DNA from: Candidatus Dormiibacterota bacterium
Lineage (GTDB): Bacteria; Chloroflexota; Dormibacteria; Dormibacterales; Dormibacteraceae
NCBI GenBank assembly: GCA_003151665.1
Contig: PLYD01000002.1
Span: forward strand, 953 to 17,649
Reading direction: 5' to 3'
Length of the DNA stretch: 16,697 nucleotides
Below, piece by piece: positions 5,450-16,159 of this stretch (its first letter is position 1; each line of letters begins with the position of its first letter). The translations under genes and the position numbers were made by a program. The notes under the pieces are model-generated. The model ran no database searches and had not been told where the DNA came from. It saw nothing but the letters and a program-made list of their open reading frames with translations.

Positions 5450-6439
5450 ATCGGCGCCTGGGAGTTCTATCTCGTCGTCCTTCTTATATATCTAGGCACC
5501 GACCTTCTGGCTGCGTGGGGCCTGAACCTGGAATTCGGGGTCGCGGGCGTCGCCAACCTCGCATTCATCGTCACCATCGCTGCGGGCGCTTATGGGTACG
5601 CCATTTTCACCATCGGGTCGCCGACCTCCAACGGCAACTTCCAGCAGTACGTAGGCGGCTTCAGCTTTTCCTTTCCAATCGCCTTGGCCGCCGGCATCGT
5701 GGCCGGCGCTGTAGTGGGCGTTCTCATCGCGATCACCGGCCTTAAGCGGCTTCGCCAGGACTACCAGGCGATGGCCATGCTCGTCGTTTCGCTTATGGCG
5801 GCCACTGTGGTCAGCGCGGACACGCCGTTCCTTAACGGGAATGCCGGCCTGGTGATCTTTCCGTCTTTCGCCCCATTCTCAGACCAGGACCCTGAGGTCC
5901 AGCGGTGGGCCTACGTCGGAATAGTTTTCGTGGCCTGCCTGGGGGCCTACTTCATCCTTCGCCGGTTCACGGCCGGCCCCTTCGGCCGCACCCTTCGGGC
6001 GATGCGCGATGACGACCTTGCCGCGCAGGCCATCGGCAAGGACGTCGTCGTCCTTCGACTCGCGGTCCAGGCCGTCGGCGGCGCGTTCGGCGGCCTCAGC
6101 GGCGCACTGCTCATCGCTTTCATCGGCGGCTGGTCTCCGAGTGCGTGGGCGTACATCGAAACGCTCGCTTTGCTTACCGCGGTGATCGTCGGCGGGATGG
6201 GCAACGATCGGGGAGTGACCATCGGCATGTTCCTGATCGGCATCCTGATCCTCCAGGGGGTCCAGTTCTTGAACAACGTCCCCGCGCTGAGGGCGCTCGA
6301 GTCGTACGTCAACCGCACGGGACTGATCCATGACTTCGGCTGGATCGTGCTGGGCACCCTCACCATCGTGTTCATCTGGCTTCGCCCGCAGGGGATCTTC
6401 CCGGAGCGGCGCCCCCGTTACGGCGGTCAGGCCACTTGA
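5450..6439 (+). CDS. livM: HAAT ABC transporter permease (LivM-type), non-standard start codon
   Basis: This is the second channel subunit, about 329 residues with some eight to ten membrane helices. Family features include 'GLNLEFGVAGVANLAF' near the N-terminus, the coupling loop 'MRDDDLAAQAIGKDV', the repeated 'GGAFGGLSGAL' and 'VGGMGNDRG', and a final 'IWLRPQGIFPERRPRYGG'. The frame is open from 5417, just after a TGA at 5414-5416. It has no ATG, GTG or TTG until TTG 5684, which would delete about 78 residues including conserved helices. A clear ribosome-binding site, GGGAGG (5435-5440), points to ATC 5450, giving 'IGAWEFYLVVLLIYLG'. A downstream CTG, or a base error here, is the alternative. 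The stop overlaps the next start as TTGA. Confidence 0.82.
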   Translation: MGAWEFYLVVLLIYLGTDLLAAWGLNLEFGVAGVANLAFIVTIAAGAYGYAIFTIGSPTSNGNFQQYVGGFSFSFPIALAAGIVAGAVVGVLIAITGLKRLRQDYQAMAMLVVSLMAATVVSADTPFLNGNAGLVIFPSFAPFSDQDPEVQRWAYVGIVFVACLGAYFILRRFTAGPFGRTLRAMRDDDLAAQAIGKDVVVLRLAVQAVGGAFGGLSGALLIAFIGGWSPSAWAYIETLALLTAVIVGGMGNDRGVTIGMFLIGILILQGVQFLNNVPALRALESYVNRTGLIHDFGWIVLGTLTIVFIWLRPQGIFPERRPRYGGQAT

Positions 6440-7990: not shown

Positions 7991-9007
7991 TTAGGCGGAG
8001 GCAGCCGGCGCTGCACCTGTCTTGAGGGGCAGCTTCAGTAGCCGCGCCGCGTTTCCGTAGAGGACCTTCGCCCGCTCGGACTCGTCCATCGGCATCGTCT
8101 TGATGGTGTGGAGCTCATCGAGCGGCCAGCGCTCGCCGTTGTCCGGTCCAAACGGAAAATCCGTGCCGAACAGGATGTGGTCGGCGCCGAAGAAATTGAG
8201 CGCCACCCGGACCGCCTCCGGCGAGCCATTGCTGATGCAGTCGTTGTAGAAGAGGCGGAAGTGGTCTAGCGGCTGGCCGGTCAGCGCGGCACCGCTCTCG
8301 CCCAAGCCCAGCTTCGCGTACTCCTCTGAACTGGTCTCGGCAAAAGCCGCGATTCGTGCTGCGAAATGCGGAATCATCCCGCCCATGTGGTGCGTGACGA
8401 ACTTGATGCTGGGGAAGCGCTCGAACACACCGCCGTAAACCAACCTCGCCATCGCGAGCGACGTGTCGAACGGCCAGGCGAGTACGCGATCGAGCACGTC
8501 CTTTCTGATCCACGGGTAGTAGTTCGCGTGTTGAGGATGGATCCAGATCGGAAAGTCGAGCGCCGCCGCCCGCTCGTAGAGCGGCCACATCGACTCGTCA
8601 TCGAGGGGCTTGCCTTCGATGTTCGAGAAGATGAGCACACCCTTCAGGCCGAGTTCTCCGTGGATTCGCTCGAACTCATCCATCATCACTCCGTCGACTA
8701 CCGGCAGCACGCCGACCCCGACGAATCGATCGGGCCGCTTGGCAGCGAAGTTCGCGATTGAATCGTTCGCTACGCGCGAAAGCCGGTGGACGTCGGAGCG
8801 GTCCATGCCCAGCCATACAGGCGGCCGGGCCAGGATGAGCACCTGCACGTCGAAACCGTGCTCGTCCATGTAAGCGAGCCGTGCTGCGTGCTCGAAGTTG
8901 TGCGGGCTCTGCGCGCGAAGTGCGGCGAGCTCTTTGCTCGGCTTTACCTCAGCCAGGGCTTCGATCAGAGGCATTGGGAAAACGTGCGCATAGGCGTCGA
9001 TGACCAT
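7991..9007 (-). CDS. Amidohydrolase-2 family protein (ACMSD-like fold)
   Basis: This 338-residue TIM-barrel protein is of the amidohydrolase-2 family, which contains ACMSD, resorcylate decarboxylases and lactone hydrolases. Visible features are the N-terminal 'MVIDAYAHVFP', 'PIWIHPQH' with His157, 'FVTHHMGGMIPHF' with His206/His207, and 'ILFGTDFPFG' with Asp283, the usual metal and catalytic positions. The first His of the DxHxH motif is Tyr6, leaving only His8. ATG 9007 is chosen because family members start at this motif. An extension to 9130 would run into the divergent gene and adds no conserved residues. It is separated by 27 bp from the molybdenum hydroxylase gene. Decarboxylation or hydrolysis of a cyclic or aromatic acid is plausible; the substrate is unknown. 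Confidence 0.88.
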   Translation of the reverse strand: MVIDAYAHVFPMPLIEALAEVKPSKELAALRAQSPHNFEHAARLAYMDEHGFDVQVLILARPPVWLGMDRSDVHRLSRVANDSIANFAAKRPDRFVGVGVLPVVDGVMMDEFERIHGELGLKGVLIFSNIEGKPLDDESMWPLYERAAALDFPIWIHPQHANYYPWIRKDVLDRVLAWPFDTSLAMARLVYGGVFERFPSIKFVTHHMGGMIPHFAARIAAFAETSSEEYAKLGLGESGAALTGQPLDHFRLFYNDCISNGSPEAVRVALNFFGADHILFGTDFPFGPDNGERWPLDELHTIKTMPMDESERAKVLYGNAARLLKLPLKTGAAPAASA

Positions 9008-9020
9008 CCTGCCTCGATAA

Positions 9021-9034
9021 TACCTGCGAAGGTA
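9021..9034. promoter_or_regulatory. Small dyad in a 27-bp divergent intergenic gap
   Basis: TACCT and AGGTA flank GCGA in the gap between two divergent starts. It is short and may be chance, but it sits where an operator shared by both genes would be. The AAGG part could also serve as a close ribosome-binding site for the plus-strand gene. Confidence 0.2.
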
Positions 9035-11278
9035 GTGAGTAGGACAGAAGGCTTCATCGGACAGTCGATGAGGCGCCGCGAGGATCCGCCCCTGATCCAG
9101 GGAATGGGTCGCTACGCCGGGGACAATCACGTTTTCGGTACCGCTTACATGGCAGTGCGTCGTGCCGGTGTGCCACGTGGCGATGGCCTCCAGGTCGACG
9201 TTTCAGGGGCACTCAACATGCCGGGCGTCCTTGGGGCCTGGATTGCAGGCGAGCTCGGGCTGGCCGACGAGTTCATGCCGGACCCGAATCCCCAGCAACC
9301 ACTCGCGGTCCGCCGGCCTGTGCTGGCCAGGCAGGAGGTGCGCTTCGAGGGCGATGCTGTGGCGGTCGTGCTGGCTGAGTCGGAGTACCAGGCCCACGAC
9401 GCGATCGACGCGATCGACGTCCAGCTGAATCCCCTCTCGGAGGTGACAAGCGCCCTTCCCGTGCAGAGCTTCCGCATCGGGGATGCGGAGCGATCAATCC
9501 AGCAAGCACCCGTCAGGGAGAGGCAGCACCTTGCGATGGCACGGATCTGCGGCGCGGCGATGGAGCCCAGGGCCGCCTTCGCCGACTGGAGAGAAGAGGA
9601 GAACAAGCTCTACATCCGCGCCAGCGTCGGCGGCGTGCATGTCCTTCGCGACACGTTGACCAGATGCCTGGGGCTCGAGCGCGGGCAGGTCGTTGCCCTC
9701 GCGGAAGACGTGGGCGGAAGTTTCGGGGCGAAGAATCATCCCTACCCCGAATACATCATGGCGTCCGCGATCAGCCGCCTCGTGAGACGCCCAGTTCGCT
9801 GGGTGGCCGGTCGATCCGAGGACGGTCAAACGACCGGCCAGGCTCATTCGGCCGACCTCGACCTGGAGATCGCCTCCGACCGTGATGGACGGCTGCTCGC
9901 GCTGCGCGGGAAGATTTTGTGGACCGTCGGAGCCTACCTTGGCCGCGGCGCGTTGCAGGAGAACAGCATCGCCGCACATGCCATGTCCGCGTACCGGATG
10001 CCTGCTTTCGACATCGAGGTGGCACCGCGCCAATCGGACACTCCGCCGGCCGCGTTCATTCGCGGTGGCGGGCGCCCGGTCGGCAATTTTGCAGTCGAGC
10101 GGATGATGGACCGCCTCGCTCGGCGCATTGGCCTCGACCCGATCGAGCTGCGCCGCCGCAACCTCGTCGGGCCGGCGGAGATGCCTTACGACACGGGCCT
10201 CAACTCGATTGTGTACGACGGCGGCGATTACCCACGACTCCTTGAGCTGGCCGTCGAACGAGTCGGCGCCGCGGCAGTCCGCCAGCGCCAGCTCGCCGGC
10301 GAACCGGTTGGGGTGGGCGTCGCGATGTGCGTCGAGTCCACAGGGATTGGCATGCCTGAGCCCTCGCGCGTGGCAGTTCTGGCGGACGGCACCGTCCGGG
10401 TTTTCGTCGGCAGCACTCCTCAAGGCCAAGGGCACCAGACCTTCATCGCGCAGGTCGCCGCTGACCGGCTCGGCTGGCCAGTCGACCGCGTGGACGTGCG
10501 AGCCGGCGACAGCCGCGACGTCGCTTTCTCGTTTGTCACGGCGGGGAGTCGCAGCGCTCTCGAGGTCGGCAACTCGGTGGCGCTGTCCGCAGCGGCGGCG
10601 CGGCGCCTGCTTCTCGAACGTGCGTCGCAAAAGCTCGAAGCGGCGGCAGAGGATCTCGTGCTCGACGTCAGCGGGGTTGGAGTTCGTGGCGTGCCGGATC
10701 GCCGCATCAAGCTGAGCGATCTCGTGGGTGACGGGCTCGAGGCGGCGGAGGTCTGGGATTCGAAGGGCAAAGGCGCGTGGGCTTCGAGCTGCCATGCGGC
10801 AGTCGTGAAGGTGGATGCAGAGACTGGCGGCGTTGACATCGAGCGCTATGTGATCGCGCACGATTCCGGCCGCTCGATCAACCCCATGTTGTTGGACGGC
10901 CAGCTACACGGCGGCTACGCGCACGGCCTCGGCTACGCCCTCTTCGAGGAGGCGCTGTACTCGCCCGATGGAAACTTCCAGTCGCCGAGCTTTCTCGACT
11001 ACACGATCGTCAGCGCCCCCGAGCTCCGAGTCGAGCCCGAGCTGATCCACACCGAGACTGCCACGATTCACAACCCCGAGGGTTTTCGCGGAGCGGGCGA
11101 GGCGGGGACGATCGCGGTTCCGGCCGCGATTGCCAATGCGATTGAGGATGCGCTCTATGCGATGGGCTTCGATGTGGCCGTGGACTCCGTGCCGGTTACG
11201 CCGATGAAGCTGTGGAACCTGATACGCGCGGCCCCTCGGCGAGCACCTTCGGCCGGGCGCGCGCAGGGCGCAGGTTAG
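9035..11278 (+). CDS. Xanthine dehydrogenase-family molybdopterin-binding subunit
   Basis: This 747-residue protein is the large, Mo-cofactor-binding subunit of a molybdenum hydroxylase (aldehyde oxidase / XDH / CoxL superfamily), which hydroxylates aldehydes or heteroaromatic rings using water. The N-terminal 'FIGQSMRRREDPPLIQGMGRYAGD' is the usual opening, followed by the hammerhead domain to about 120 and two Mo-binding domains. Motifs are 'VGGSFGAKN' (226-234), 'FIRGGGRP' (341-348) and 'GAGEAGTIAVP' with the catalytic Glu689. The CO-dehydrogenase loop AYRCSFR is absent, so it is not a form I CODH. GTG 9035 is chosen to keep FIGQS; ATG 9068 is the alternative. No FAD or 2Fe-2S subunit gene lies in the window: the neighbours on both sides are on the other strand. 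Confidence 0.88.
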   Translation: MSRTEGFIGQSMRRREDPPLIQGMGRYAGDNHVFGTAYMAVRRAGVPRGDGLQVDVSGALNMPGVLGAWIAGELGLADEFMPDPNPQQPLAVRRPVLARQEVRFEGDAVAVVLAESEYQAHDAIDAIDVQLNPLSEVTSALPVQSFRIGDAERSIQQAPVRERQHLAMARICGAAMEPRAAFADWREEENKLYIRASVGGVHVLRDTLTRCLGLERGQVVALAEDVGGSFGAKNHPYPEYIMASAISRLVRRPVRWVAGRSEDGQTTGQAHSADLDLEIASDRDGRLLALRGKILWTVGAYLGRGALQENSIAAHAMSAYRMPAFDIEVAPRQSDTPPAAFIRGGGRPVGNFAVERMMDRLARRIGLDPIELRRRNLVGPAEMPYDTGLNSIVYDGGDYPRLLELAVERVGAAAVRQRQLAGEPVGVGVAMCVESTGIGMPEPSRVAVLADGTVRVFVGSTPQGQGHQTFIAQVAADRLGWPVDRVDVRAGDSRDVAFSFVTAGSRSALEVGNSVALSAAAARRLLLERASQKLEAAAEDLVLDVSGVGVRGVPDRRIKLSDLVGDGLEAAEVWDSKGKGAWASSCHAAVVKVDAETGGVDIERYVIAHDSGRSINPMLLDGQLHGGYAHGLGYALFEEALYSPDGNFQSPSFLDYTIVSAPELRVEPELIHTETATIHNPEGFRGAGEAGTIAVPAAIANAIEDALYAMGFDVAVDSVPVTPMKLWNLIRAAPRRAPSAGRAQGAG

Positions 11279-11309
11279 CGAAAGCGCGCGCAGGGCGCAG
11301 GTTAACGAA
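11257..11309. repeat. 27-bp tandem repeat across the convergent gene ends
   Basis: Copy 1 (11257-11282) and copy 2 (11284-11309) match at 25 of 26 positions with a period of 27 bases. The single difference is GTTAG versus GTTAA. Copy 1 carries the TAG stop of the molybdenum hydroxylase gene on the plus strand. Copy 2 carries, read on the minus strand, the TAA stop of the acyl adenylase gene. The period equals nine codons. Confidence 0.85.
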
Positions 11310-12867
11310 GGCGCTCGGCGAGCGCTTTCTTCGACACCTTCCCGAACGTAGAGAGAGGAAAATCGCCCATCAGCTCCAGGCGCTCGGGCAGCTTGAACTT
11401 GGCCATGCCCGCATCCAGGAGAAACCTGGTCAACTCTTCGAGCGTGAGCGTACTGCCCTGGCGTGGGATCACGCACGCGCACATTCGCTCGCCGAGAACG
11501 GGATCGGGAAACGGGACGCACGCAACGTTCCGGACCGAAGGGTGAGTCAGGATCACGCTCTCCACCTCTTCGCTGCTGATCTTCTCGCCACCGCGGTTGA
11601 CCAGGTCCTTGATCCGCCCCTCGACGAGGTACGACCCCGATGGGTGGCGTCGCATCAGGTCGCCCGAGCGGTAGAAACCATCCGCAGTGAATTGGCGGGC
11701 GTTGTAATCGGGCACCCGGTAATAGCCGCGCAATGTGTAAGGGCCGCGCACCGTGAGCTCGCCAACCTCGCCATCGGCGACCTCCCGGCCGTCCTCGTCG
11801 GTGAGCCGCACCTCGTCATCGGCGCTGACCGGCCTGCCGACGGTCTCGAGCCGCACGTCCTCGGGGTCATCTCGTCGTACGAAGAACAAGGTGCCTTCGC
11901 TCATTCCGAAATTCTCTTGAACGAAAGCGTTGGGGAAAGCTTGGGCCATCCGTCGCCGGACCTCGGGCTGCAGGCGCTGGCCACCTGACTGTAAGAGCTC
12001 GACCGAGGTCAGGTCGTGGCGGCTATGTGCCGGGTCCGCCAGCCAGCGGATGTACAGGGCGGGCACACCCCCGACGTGGGTGACCCGATGCTTTTCGATG
12101 AGCTCGAACACGTCGGGCGCCTTGGTGCTCGTCCCGATGACGACGCGACCGCCCGCCATGAGGAACCCCTGCACGCCGGGGCACGCAAGCGGCATGTTGT
12201 GCGCGAGCGGCAATACGCAGAGCTGGCGGCTCTCGGCGGTGATGTCCTGGACGGCAGCCGCGGCTCGCGAGTTGTAGAGGTAGTCATTGTGTGTTCGCGG
12301 TATCAGCTTTGGGATGCCGGTCGTTCCGCCTGACAGGAGCAACACACACGGGTCGGTCGGATCGACGTCGATGGGGGGCGGGGGAGCGGTTGGCGCAATG
12401 GCCGTCAGCTCGTCGAGTGTGAAGGTGTCGCGCAGCATCGCGTTTGTGCCCCGGACCTCCGAGGCCAGGTCCGGGTCGGTGCCGAAGTAGGCGATGGCGT
12501 CCGCCAGCTTGACGAAATGGTCGATCTCGAGCCGGCGATGCGGCGCGAGGGCCAGGATCGGGACGACCCCGAGCTTCTGCAGCGCGAAGTAGAGAAACAG
12601 GAACTCCGGGCCGTTGGGCAGGTGGACGACCACGCGATCGAGCGGGCGAAGGCCGCGCTCGTACAAGTATCCGGCCAGGGAAGCCGACCTCTGTCCGAGC
12701 TCCGCATATGTGATGGTCCGATCACCGCTTTGCAGGGCGACCCTGTCGTGATGCCTGGCGAAAAGGTCGCTGAAGACGGTGTCGAGCGTCTCGTCCCGCC
12801 AGTAGCCCAGTCGCCGATAGCGTTGGGCAAACTCGGGAGGATATGGAACGACCCCGTCAAGACCCAT
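11302..12867 (-). CDS. Aryl-acid adenylating enzyme (DhbE/EntE-like AMP ligase)
   Basis: This 521-residue ANL-superfamily enzyme activates a carboxylic acid with ATP, probably giving an acyl-CoA. The whole sequence resembles aryl-acid adenylases: opening 'YPPEFAQRYRRLGYW', P-loop LSGGTTGIPK (178-187) then 'LIPRTHNDY', 'LAHNMPLACPG' (222-231), 'NFGMSEG' (319-325), 'YRSGDL' (399-404), 'GRIKDLVNRGGEKI' (417-430) and catalytic Lys510 in 'STFGKVSKK'. Asn224 is kept, as in 2-hydroxybenzoate binders. Cys229 and Leu327 occupy positions that, as I recall, are Ser and Val in dihydroxybenzoate enzymes and Cys and Leu in salicylate ones. No siderophore NRPS or isochorismatase gene lies nearby, so an aromatic-acid catabolic ligase is more likely. 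Its ATG overlaps the SDR stop by one base (TGATG). Confidence 0.88.
   Translation of the reverse strand: MGLDGVVPYPPEFAQRYRRLGYWRDETLDTVFSDLFARHHDRVALQSGDRTITYAELGQRSASLAGYLYERGLRPLDRVVVHLPNGPEFLFLYFALQKLGVVPILALAPHRRLEIDHFVKLADAIAYFGTDPDLASEVRGTNAMLRDTFTLDELTAIAPTAPPPPIDVDPTDPCVLLLSGGTTGIPKLIPRTHNDYLYNSRAAAAVQDITAESRQLCVLPLAHNMPLACPGVQGFLMAGGRVVIGTSTKAPDVFELIEKHRVTHVGGVPALYIRWLADPAHSRHDLTSVELLQSGGQRLQPEVRRRMAQAFPNAFVQENFGMSEGTLFFVRRDDPEDVRLETVGRPVSADDEVRLTDEDGREVADGEVGELTVRGPYTLRGYYRVPDYNARQFTADGFYRSGDLMRRHPSGSYLVEGRIKDLVNRGGEKISSEEVESVILTHPSVRNVACVPFPDPVLGERMCACVIPRQGSTLTLEELTRFLLDAGMAKFKLPERLELMGDFPLSTFGKVSKKALAERLR
11311..11331 (+). terminator. Possible intrinsic terminator of the molybdenum hydroxylase gene
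   Basis: GCGCTC and GAGCGC (11311-11316, 11320-11325) form a perfect 6-bp stem with a GGC loop, followed by TTTCTT. It begins 33 bases after the plus-strand stop and lies inside the 3' end of the convergent adenylase gene. The T-run is interrupted, so strength is uncertain. Confidence 0.35.
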
Positions 12868-13637
12868 CAGGTGGTGGCCGAAAAGCCGCCATCGATGACG
12901 ACGATCTCGCCGTTCACCATCGGGTTGCTGGCGATCAAGCTCACGATGGTGATGGCGACCTCATCAGGCGTCACGCAGCGCTTCAGTGGTGTCAGGCTCG
13001 CGCGCCGCTCCATCAAGCGCTCGTAGTTATCGCCCAGGGCGTTCTCCATCCACTCGCCCGACATCCACCCAGGAGCCACGGCGTTGACGCGGATCTTCGG
13101 ACCGAGGGCCCCCGCCAGGGTCCGAGTCAGGTTCCCAACCGCTGCTTTGCTGGCGGCGTACGGAAACGGCTGCGGGCCGGGTCGGAGTCCAGCGATGCTG
13201 CAGAGGTTGACCACCGCGCCTGACCCGGAGTGGTTGAGCATAGGAACGCAGGCGCGCGTGACCTGATACATGCCGCGCACGTTGACTGCGAACACGCGGT
13301 CCCACTCGGCCATGTCAAGACCGTTGATATCGGAGGGCGGAGTCGGCACCGTCGTGCCGGCGTTGTTCACCAGGGCGTCCAGCCGCCCGAGCTCATCCTC
13401 GATGCGGCTAACCATCGCCAGCACCTGTGATTCGTCGGCGACGTCGGCCTGAACTACCACCGATCTGACCCCAAGCGCGGCGACCTCGTCCGCCACCGCC
13501 TGGGCGGCATCGCGGCTACGGCTGTAATTGACAGCCACGTCGTAGCCATGCCTCGCCAGCTCGAGGGCGGTGCTGCGGCCGATGCCGCGTGTGGCACCGG
13601 TCACGAGGGCAGCGCGGGTGCTCGCGGTTGGGCTCAT
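12867..13637 (-). CDS. SDR-family oxidoreductase (FabG-like)
   Basis: This 256-residue classical short-chain dehydrogenase/reductase catalyses NAD(P)-dependent oxidation or reduction of an alcohol/ketone. The Rossmann motif TGATRGIG is at 13-20, NNAG at 91-94, the structural Asn is Asn119 in 'FAVNV', and the catalytic set is Ser147, Tyr160 and Lys164 ('PYAASK'). The C-terminal 'VNGEIVVIDGGFSATT' is the usual ending. 'NYSRSRD' after the second strand, with no acidic residue at its end, hints at NADP preference. Its ATG overlaps the amidohydrolase stop by four bases (ATGA) and its TGA overlaps the ligase ATG. It is translationally coupled at both ends, so it probably acts in the same pathway. 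Confidence 0.92.
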   Translation of the reverse strand: MSPTASTRAALVTGATRGIGRSTALELARHGYDVAVNYSRSRDAAQAVADEVAALGVRSVVVQADVADESQVLAMVSRIEDELGRLDALVNNAGTTVPTPPSDINGLDMAEWDRVFAVNVRGMYQVTRACVPMLNHSGSGAVVNLCSIAGLRPGPQPFPYAASKAAVGNLTRTLAGALGPKIRVNAVAPGWMSGEWMENALGDNYERLMERRASLTPLKRCVTPDEVAITIVSLIASNPMVNGEIVVIDGGFSATT

Positions 13638-14515
13638 CGCACCCCGCGGCGCGGTTCCGCCGACGGCTCACGCATAAATCCGAGGACGCGCTCCGCGTTC
13701 CCGTGAAACACATCTTCCATGACCTCATCCGCGTACCCGAGCTCGCCCCATTCGCGGAAGACGCGCTCATACGCCAAGCTGGGGTAGTCGCTGCCGAACA
13801 TCACCTTGTCGCGGAGCCGACCCCTGACGTCCTTCTTCAAGCTGTCGGGAAAGTACTTCGGCGCCCAGCCCGACAGCTCCCAGTAGACGTTGCCCTTATG
13901 CAGCGCGACGGCCGTCATCTCCTCGATCCAAGGCCATCCTGGGTGCGCGGCGATGATGGTCAGCTTCGGAAAGTTGGCGGCAAGATCGTCGAGGGCGAGG
14001 GGATGCGCGTGCCGCAGCCTCGAGCCCAACCCTCCAGGAAGCCCCGCGCCCATACCTGTGGTGCCCACATCGATCATCACTGGAACCCTCAATGCATCGA
14101 TGAGCTCGAACAGCGGGCGCAGGCTCTCGTCGTCGACGGCGAATCGACCCATGATCGGATGGAAGTGGAAGCCCAGCAGGTGGAGGTCTTCGATTGCATG
14201 CCTGGCGTCCTCGAGTGCGGCCGCGCCCTTCAACGGGTCGACCGCCGCCCAGCCTTGAAGGATCGTGCCCGGGTGCCGATCCCGCAGCTCAGCCACGTAG
14301 TCGTTGCTGCAAGGCGGCGCGCCGGTGACGGATTCAATGTCGAAGGCGACGAGCACCGCCTCGACGCCCGCGTCCTCGAACTCCTGGATTACCTGGTCTT
14401 CGGTTTTCGCGACCCACTCACGCTTCCAGTAAGCGCCGAGCGCTTCAGCGAACGGCCCATACGAGTCGATCCACGGCTGCGTACCGGGGTAGCAGTGCAG
14501 GTCGATCTTGCGCAT
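13634..14515 (-). CDS. Amidohydrolase-2 family protein with degenerate metal motif
   Basis: This 293-residue TIM-barrel protein is of the amidohydrolase-2 family. It opens with 'MRKIDLHCYPG', so the usual DxHxH reads D-L-H7-C-Y9. The strand that normally carries a metal-binding His reads 'VPVMIDVGTTGMG' (Asp149). 'IIAAHPGWPW' gives His191, and 'VMFGSDYPS' gives Asp243. The segment 'GTTGMGAGLPGGLGSRL' and 'NVYWELSGWAPKYFP' mark a recurring uncharacterised clade. Because two His positions differ, the metal site may be mononuclear or absent. An AGGG lies five bases before the ATG. It is the second gene of the minus-strand operon, 23 bases after the regulator, and overlaps the SDR gene by four bases. 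Decarboxylase or hydrolase activity is possible; the substrate is unknown. Confidence 0.87.
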   Translation of the reverse strand: MRKIDLHCYPGTQPWIDSYGPFAEALGAYWKREWVAKTEDQVIQEFEDAGVEAVLVAFDIESVTGAPPCSNDYVAELRDRHPGTILQGWAAVDPLKGAAALEDARHAIEDLHLLGFHFHPIMGRFAVDDESLRPLFELIDALRVPVMIDVGTTGMGAGLPGGLGSRLRHAHPLALDDLAANFPKLTIIAAHPGWPWIEEMTAVALHKGNVYWELSGWAPKYFPDSLKKDVRGRLRDKVMFGSDYPSLAYERVFREWGELGYADEVMEDVFHGNAERVLGFMREPSAEPRRGVR

Positions 14516-14538: not shown

Positions 14539-15408
14539 TCAGGACTCGGACGCCGCAATCGTCCCCGGATCCGCTTCGACTGCGGGCTCGCCTTCGGACA
14601 GGTTGGTCAGCTCCAGCAGTCCCGGTCCATAAAGGCTCTCGAGCTCACTCGGCAGGTCCGCGTACATACGCTGCACGAACAGGTCGTGGCGGATGTAGGA
14701 CTTCACCAGGCTCGCGGCCAATGGGAAATCTCCGAACATCACCTCCCATTCGCGCCCGTCGCGAGCCAGGGCCCACAATGCCCACCTCGAGTCGACAACC
14801 AGCGCGAGGTGGCGCGCTTTTCGAGACGCGTAAAGCGTGCCCTCCGTGCTCGCGTGCCGCATGACCTGTCCGCGTGGCGGCTGGAACGGCAGGTGGCCGA
14901 AATGGACGATGACGAACTGGACGTCGCGGCCGGCCGCCTCGTCAACAGCGGCAGCGAGTCCCTTGAGCTCCTCTGTCCGACCGCTGAGGTAGACGCGACT
15001 GCGGGCGCGTGACAATGCGTCGGTCGCTCTCTCAGTAGCGGCAGCGAAGCTGTCCAGGCGCGAGAGCGCAACGCTGCCGTCGCGGAACGGACGGTCCGGG
15101 AGATTCTCGAGGCTCTTGCGGGCCGCCTTTACCTTTTCGCCGAATTCCTTCTCCAGCGCGCTGAGCAGAGCTTGCGGGGGCACCGCCGCATAACGGGCAG
15201 GCCGCTCGCCGGTCAAGATCGCGGCCCTGCGCTGAACCAGGCGGCGCAGGGTCTCGTACACCTTCGGCTGTGGCACCCCTGTGTCGTTGGCCACGCTGTA
15301 GCCGGTCGCGCCTTCTGACATCAGCAGACCGACGTAGGTGCGCGCTTCGTAGCGGGAGAAGCCGAGCTGGATCAGCCGCTCTGCGATGGACGTGGCGGAT
15401 TCATTCAT
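14539..15408 (-). CDS. TrmB-family transcriptional regulator
   Basis: This 289-residue protein has a TrmB-type winged helix at about 8-75 ('LIQLGFSRYEARTYVGLL', 'TGVPQPKVYETLRRL', 'RPARYAAV'), then a short coiled segment ('LEKEFGEKVKAARKSLENL') and a C-terminal effector domain from about 108 with the PLD-like pattern 'SRVYLSGRTEELKGLAAAV' and 'HLALVVDSRWALWAL'. TrmB proteins are often sugar-responsive in archaea, but bacterial members respond to varied ligands. It is the first gene of a four-gene minus-strand operon, suggesting that it controls that operon and itself. Four inverted repeats lie within 75 bases upstream. The ATG at 15408 lacks a strong ribosome-binding site; the surrounding ATGAAT-ACAG-ATGAATGAAT repeats make the exact start slightly uncertain. 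Confidence 0.88.
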   Translation of the reverse strand: MNESATSIAERLIQLGFSRYEARTYVGLLMSEGATGYSVANDTGVPQPKVYETLRRLVQRRAAILTGERPARYAAVPPQALLSALEKEFGEKVKAARKSLENLPDRPFRDGSVALSRLDSFAAATERATDALSRARSRVYLSGRTEELKGLAAAVDEAAGRDVQFVIVHFGHLPFQPPRGQVMRHASTEGTLYASRKARHLALVVDSRWALWALARDGREWEVMFGDFPLAASLVKSYIRHDLFVQRMYADLPSELESLYGPGLLELTNLSEGEPAVEADPGTIAASES

Positions 15409-15530: not shown

Positions 15531-16067
15531 CTAGCCCGGCGCCAGGGGATGGCCGTTCAAGGTGGCCTTCAGGTCCACCGGGACCGGCGCTCGAAAGGTT
15601 TGAGCCGCATGGCAGGCTCGCTCGGCGTGAGCCACCAGCTTGGCAACCTGTGATTCGGGCGCTGGGCTGGTTACGTGGAGATCGAATGTCACCTGCTGGA
15701 AGGCGCCCGGCGGGCCGCCCAGGTCGTACTTGTCCGCCACGCTGAAGGTGGCGCGGACGTCGACGTCGGCCTCTTCGATCGGGACCTCATACAGGGGCGA
15801 AAACTTCGCCAATTGGGTAAGCAGTCAAAAAGCTGCGCCGGCGAGGAGGTACTGCAAGGGCGCGGGCGCCAGGTCGTCGCCGCCCCGCTCCGGGGGCTCG
15901 TCGGACTCGATCTGAAACCGGCCGACCCGGCCGACCATATGCATGTCCTTGTCGATATGGGCGACCGCCCGCTGGGTCAAGACCGGAGTCTTCATGGTGT
16001 TTGCTCGCGTGGCGTCGTAAGCCTTTTGCATTCGGTCGCCGTCGACACGGGTGGGCTTGTCGCTCAA
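15531..16067 (-). CDS. OsmC-family protein, candidate selenoprotein (in-frame TGA = Sec81)
   Basis: Read through one in-frame TGA (15825-15827), this gene encodes 178 residues of the OsmC/Ohr-like thiol peroxidase family. The N-terminal half has 'ESDEPPERGGDDLAPAPLQYLLAGAAF' (54-80), then the TGA, then 'LLTQLAKFSPLYEVPIEEADVDVRATFS' and 'AERACHAAQTFRAPVPV' with Cys152. In the family the first redox Cys follows the 'P-x-x-L-L-L-A-A-L-G-G-C' pattern, 11 residues after the Pro; here Pro70 puts the TGA at exactly that place. The second conserved Cys is Cys152. The TTG at 16067 is chosen because GGGAGG lies seven bases upstream. A SECIS-like stem-loop follows the TGA. Other genes here end in TGA, so the code is standard. 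The alternative is a nonsense mutation. The likely role is reducing organic peroxides. Confidence 0.78.
15783..15827 (-). promoter_or_regulatory. Candidate bacterial SECIS element
   Basis: Starting at the UGA on the minus strand, the RNA can fold as GAC/GUC (15826-15824 with 15785-15783), CUUA/UGAG (15821-15818 with 15789-15786, one G-U pair), a 7x6 internal loop, then a perfect 6-bp apical helix GGCGAA/UUCGCC (15810-15796) with a GUU loop. The apical loop begins with G and lies 20 bases after the UGA, which fits the bacterial SECIS pattern as I know it. Confidence 0.62.
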
Positions 16068-16159
16068 GTTGCGTCCTCCCAATACAGAGCAGAACCTTTC
16101 CCTGGCAGCAAGATAGCAGCCGGCCGAGAGACGATTTTTCTCTTGCGCTCAAGGGGCCC

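Follow-up and report, generated by a model that had tools for sequence, protein, structure and literature searches.

A minus-strand gene at 15531..16067 of a 16,697-nucleotide stretch of Candidatus Dormiibacterota DNA (contig PLYD01000002.1; the whole stretch is hereafter the window) is predicted to encode an OsmC-family thiol/selenol peroxidase with selenocysteine (Sec) as its peroxidatic residue, which SelB and tRNA-Sec would insert at an in-frame UGA as directed by a hairpin. We assign this reading a probability of about 0.96; it is supported by the position of the TGA at the first redox Cys, its deep conservation, a covarying hairpin, and sel genes in the nearest genome compared. Identification as a selenoprotein appears secure by all sequence tests used, and the kind is already known: an 'OsmC-like protein, UxxT' from the Sargasso Sea was published in 2005 (PMC1088965), so the family is not new. 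OsmC-like selenoproteins with this motif are also treated in PMC2398784, PMC9312934, and PMC13188914, and the published counts are three (Sargasso Sea) and five (GOS samples) sequences. The sequence-only reading of this DNA had pointed, rightly, to marine OsmC selenoproteins (PMC1088965, PMC2398784), and had suggested that a rare family might extend to another lineage, as it does. What is new here is a larger branch, with Sec as the prevailing form, that spans Dormibacterota, other Chloroflexota, and metagenome-assembled genomes (MAGs) bearing the label Actinomycetes; a family previously published from marine samples thereby gains a lineage. A literature search found no paper pairing 'Dormibacter' with selenocysteine or selenoprotein, the spelling Dormiibacterota falling outside its terms.

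The gene is a frame of 178 codons read through the TGA, from a TTG start at 16067 to a TAG stop, with a Shine-Dalgarno-like GGGAGGA (16074..16080, minus strand, found by eye) 6 nt upstream of the TTG. A plain list of open reading frames splits it into two pieces (15825-16082 and 15531-15812); because callers that take TGA as a stop cut the gene in two, a redox protein conserved among uncultured bacteria is missed or misnamed. The sequence-only reading had proposed one continuous minus-strand frame broken only by the TGA at 15825-15827, with the TGA at the first redox Cys and the second Cys (152) kept, and each of these points held up. Pfam OsmC (PF02566) matches residues 63-167 of the read-through protein, spanning the TGA, with an E-value of 2.4e-14 and a score of 54 bits against a curated cut-off of 27.5. 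In alignments with solved structures (3cje, the best match at E 1.1e-9, then 1n2f and 6mjn), residue 81, the predicted Sec, lies opposite Cys, where OsmC/Ohr proteins have their first redox residue, while Cys152 (15612..15614, minus strand), the predicted resolving residue, lies opposite the second Cys and occupies an invariant column of a 28-row alignment.

The motif at codon 81, ULLT, fits the published UxxT. Like the UxxT family, the protein combines an OsmC domain with Sec in place of the first redox residue and a bacterial selenocysteine insertion sequence (SECIS) 3' of the UGA; unlike it, the branch described here is larger and comes from Dormibacterota and other MAGs, the marine records being compared by description only. 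The Ohr/OsmC organic hydroperoxide reductases (1n2f, 6mjn) share the fold and both redox positions, but Sec here replaces their first redox Cys and identity in the Ohr rows is 13-23%. The Jannaschia OsmC-like protein 3cje, the closest structure, is itself a Cys form.

The TGA recurs at the same codon in most of the relatives that we compared. We scanned 101 genomes for matches at E <= 1e-12 and 400 genomes of the phylum at E <= 1e-10, and counted codon 81 in 76 sequences (the window and 75 fetched loci); since loci of the scans overlap, the independent number is nearer 43 distinct Sec segments. The codon is covered in 71 sequences, reading TGA in 65, TGC or TGT in six, and TAA or TAG in none; the five that do not cover it are L043, L045, L079, L085, and L086. 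Among the 25 genomes with a match in the first scan, 24 of 25 rows hold one TGA and no other stop, which excludes chance. The TGA is the aligned codon in 23 of these 24 rows (in L043 it lies elsewhere, near the frame end, and L045 does not span the codon). The second scan matched 36 genomes in 38 rows, 25 with one TGA and 13 without a stop. The earlier reading had also advised looking for TGA at this codon in other genomes; besides the 65 of 71, it is present in the nearest genome compared, G001 (Candidatus Dormiibacterota), which has 53% of sampled 31-mers in common and is 98% identical over 2159 bases at the locus.

A compact SECIS-like hairpin, GGCGAA-GUU-UUCGCC, starts 14 nt after the TGA (15796..15810, minus strand) and consists of a 6 bp stem (arms 15805-15810 and 15796-15801) closed by a GUU loop (15802-15804). 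Bacterial SECIS elements are described as having a guanosine in a small apical loop (PMC1088965), and the window hairpin agrees: it is a stem-loop shortly after the TGA whose apical loop is small and contains G. Covariation was assessed in 20 distinct sequences from 22 of the 24 TGA rows of the first scan (L022 and L033 left out): pairing holds in 98.3% of stem cells, three of the six stem pairs show changes on both sides where slid versions show not one, and the covariation score was reached by 0 of 500 shuffles. Across the wider set of 43 distinct Sec segments, in fixed register, six pairs form in 37, five in three, and 1-2 in three, with further double changes in the stem (GAUGCG/CGCAUC, UGUGCG/CGCACA, UGUGCA/UGCACA). 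In the 32 distinct main-clade segments, which exclude 11 distant ones, G fills the third position of codons +5, +6, and +9 in the stem and of codon +7, the loop G, without exception (32 of 32), and from -20 to +20 no codon outside the hairpin is equally fixed except the TGA itself. The stem-closing Phe codon tracks its partner, being TTT in 9 of 11 segments with AAG and TTC in 21 of 21 with CGG. The six Cys loci form 1-3 of the six pairs and lack the hairpin. The gene supplies a compact, well supported bacterial SECIS element.

That a nonsense mutation has split an OsmC gene, leaving a pseudogene, is hardly credible against this background. Such a reading would account for the frame's being interrupted by a stop codon and for damaged copies in some relatives, but not for TGA at the same codon in 65 of 71 covering sequences with TAA or TAG never in its place, nor for the fixed third codon positions of the hairpin. 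Purifying selection, moreover, persists 3' of the TGA: between the window and L023, the nonsynonymous rate (dN) is 0.05 and the synonymous rate (dS) 0.85 upstream of it, and 0.07 and 1.34 downstream, and dN is likewise below dS on either side for the window against L024, L025, and L027. The sequence-only reading had named decay among close relatives as grounds for giving up the selenoprotein; partial, shifted, or segment-lacking copies do occur in some distant MAGs (L041-L044, L079), yet none has TAA or TAG at the site.

The machinery for Sec insertion, which the earlier reading had proposed to look for, is present in G001; SelB proteins and SECIS elements are often matched to each other within a species. 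Its tRNA-Sec (selC) scores 69.4 bits with Rfam and is called tRNA-SeC, anticodon tca, by ARAGORN; selA (487.6 bits) directly adjoins selB (343.7 bits), and selD scores 356.6 bits. Among seven genomes tested, selA exceeds the cut-off in seven, selD in six, and selB in five, the remaining two having shorter selB-like matches next to selA. ARAGORN gives tRNA-SeC with anticodon tca in all 20 loci submitted. The Rfam search exceeds its cut-off in 34 of 41 relatives, but since control genomes also give a signal (14 of 14, five over the cut-off), we count its matches only where ARAGORN supports them. The SelB-wing_3 domain was found in six of six genomes in one check and in 16 of 19 further genomes of the second scan, including the five with Cys forms read; the three in which it was not found (G239, G151, G264) are 80-85% complete, and two of them carry the Sec form. 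Sec or Cys form and SelB presence showed no clean contrast among these 19. Within the window neither Rfam (at gathering score) nor ARAGORN found anything, so it holds no tRNA-Sec gene. As a separate observation, the SelD match has one internal TGA in L105, L106, and L109 (G002, G025, G013) and none in G001, G034, and G082; SelD in these genomes is perhaps a mix of Sec and non-Sec forms.

With sel genes and a hairpin in place, we give next to no credence to the idea that TGA is globally reassigned in the lineage, or read by a suppressor tRNA, with a residue other than Sec at the site. Three JGI metagenome proteins (P0003, P0004, and P0005; 73-85% identical) do carry Trp in place of the predicted Sec, but these are protein records only, and the Trp probably stems from gene calling that took TGA for a Trp codon. 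More distant homologues have Cys there, and 7 of the 14 listed window frames end in TGA.

Several results weigh against the selenoprotein peroxidase. The 13 stop-free rows of the second scan comprise five read as TGC or TGT (L087, L094, L098-L100), two that do not span the codon, and six unfetched, which makes the count of Cys forms in distant relatives too low. Copies that are partial, shifted, or lack the segment occur at L041/L080, L042/L082, L044, and L043/L079. In the covariation analysis, two of five pair measures do not stand clearly above shuffles: 29 of 500 shuffles reach the number of both-side-change pairs, and all 500 reach the number of further pair types. The 48-nt fold has no more than a moderate stability advantage over shuffled sequences (z -1.61), of which 13 in 200 did as well. 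L092, L093, and L095 hold 1-2 of six pairs in fixed register, a shifted hairpin being visible by eye. The Sec machinery was found in G001 rather than in the window's own assembly, Sec81 incorporation and peroxidase activity are predictions, and 26 of 36 loci do not share the gene neighbourhood.

Peroxidase activity is predicted from the presence of both redox residues, and the Ohr/OsmC mechanism is our model for the steps at Sec81 and Cys152. SelB and tRNA-Sec would insert Sec at the UGA, directed by the hairpin; Sec81 would then attack a hydroperoxide, most likely an organic one, to form a selenenic acid, by analogy with Ohr/OsmC. The selenenic acid may condense with Cys152, and the resulting selenenylsulfide might in turn be reduced by a small dithiol or a lipoylated protein. 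Recurrent neighbours in the window's own branch (molybdenum hydroxylase, AMP ligase, short-chain dehydrogenase (SDR), amidohydrolase, S15-type hydrolase, and Liv-type ABC importer) suggest a role in oxidative breakdown, in which Sec-OsmC may guard, or take part in, the breakdown of an imported organic substrate.

The neighbourhood was screened by tblastn in 36 loci for the window's neighbour genes at E <= 1e-15. At least two are present in 10 loci (L051, L053-L058, L079, L081, L084), of which L051 is the near-identical region itself. In seven (L053-L057, L079, L081), a hydroxylase match with 33-36% identity to that of the window stops 14-23 nt short of the OsmC match, with both on one strand, and hydroxylase and Sec-OsmC form an apparent operon (spanning ~1700-4000 in L053, L054, L056, L057, L079, and L081, and 1336-3618 in L055). 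The 26 other loci have no neighbour gene (15), a LivF match only (seven), a more distant hydroxylase match only (three), or an AMP-ligase match only (one), so the linkage belongs mainly to the branch that includes the window. This arrangement, together with a distant copy, L084, that also lies near a hydroxylase and an S15-type hydrolase, would suit a selenoprotein that is not a peroxidase and instead serves the adjacent molybdenum hydroxylase, or another pathway enzyme, as a selenol carrier or reductase. We consider that unlikely: both Ohr/OsmC redox positions are kept, the window's hydroxylase is ~4.3 kb away on the opposite strand, and the other 29 loci do not show the adjacent arrangement.

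How Sec and Cys forms have exchanged was approached with a tree of 51 rows (38 Sec, 13 Cys; Sec scored as a gap), drawn from 43 of the 71 covering sequences (near and partial copies left out) and 8 of 12 full-length proteins (P0003-P0005, with Trp, and P0008 left out). The tree needs three Sec/Cys changes. With the four distant Cys rows taken as outside, two Cys groups apparently nest inside the Sec branch (L059 with P0006, P0007, and P0009-P0012; P0013 with P0014), though the starred branches alone force one change only, and several long branches meet. Placing all Sec rows in one clade was rejected (p-AU 0.003), as was one clade of the nine inner Cys rows (p-AU 0.003), both groups having been tested after the tree was seen. 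Sec-to-Cys change is the cheaper reading of these rows, short of proof. A 2026 review calls such changes rare in prokaryotes and documented mainly for FdhA and SelD. The branch is a prokaryotic setting in which to test which way Sec and Cys have been exchanged. A tentative conjecture, more probably wrong than right, is that Sec is ancestral and usual in the branch, that Cys arose from it at least twice, and that in Dormibacterota the protein works specifically as redox partner to a catabolic cluster with a molybdenum hydroxylase, rather than as a peroxidase for general stress.

The window's own locus has a 99% identical match in PLJM01000018.1 (Candidatus Dormiibacterota palsa_842), and the titles of other matches name Dormiibacterota/Dormibacteraeota, Chloroflexi, Ktedonobacteria, Actinomycetes, Acidimicrobiaceae, Streptosporangiales, Deltaproteobacteria, and unnamed bacteria, bin labels that may err. 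We take the hosts, from isolate names, to be aerobic bacteria of soil or peat. One scan of viral contigs found no relative of the read-through protein.

Next downstream of the OsmC gene lies a TrmB-type transcriptional regulator gene (14539..15408, minus strand; homologues in L051, L054, L056-L058, and L081), followed on the same strand by genes for an Amidohydro_2 family protein (13634..14515), the SDR (12867..13637), and an AMP-binding enzyme of the acyl/aryl ligase type (11302..12867). A molybdopterin-binding hydroxylase subunit of the xanthine dehydrogenase type is encoded on the plus strand (8786..11278), its listed start probably too far upstream. Besides this molybdenum hydroxylase, the more distant part of the window holds a second Amidohydro_2 gene, the Liv-type ABC importer, and genes for an S15-type hydrolase and an M24-type protein. 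The LivM frame (5684-6439) has no in-frame TGA inside, and since it is open upstream of the listed TTG at 5684, the true start is probably further up.

Two other sets of loci stand apart. The OsmC copy of L079 and L043, from another Dormiibacterota MAG, lacks the Sec-codon stretch and is flanked by AMP-ligase, hydroxylase, and amidohydrolase genes, reflecting either decay or an assembly fault. L083 and L084 represent a distant Sec-OsmC branch, ~30% identical, whose hairpin carries compensating changes of its own and whose neighbours are similar: hydroxylase and S15 for L084, and for L083 an adjoining M24-type gene, absent from the tblastn screen listing.
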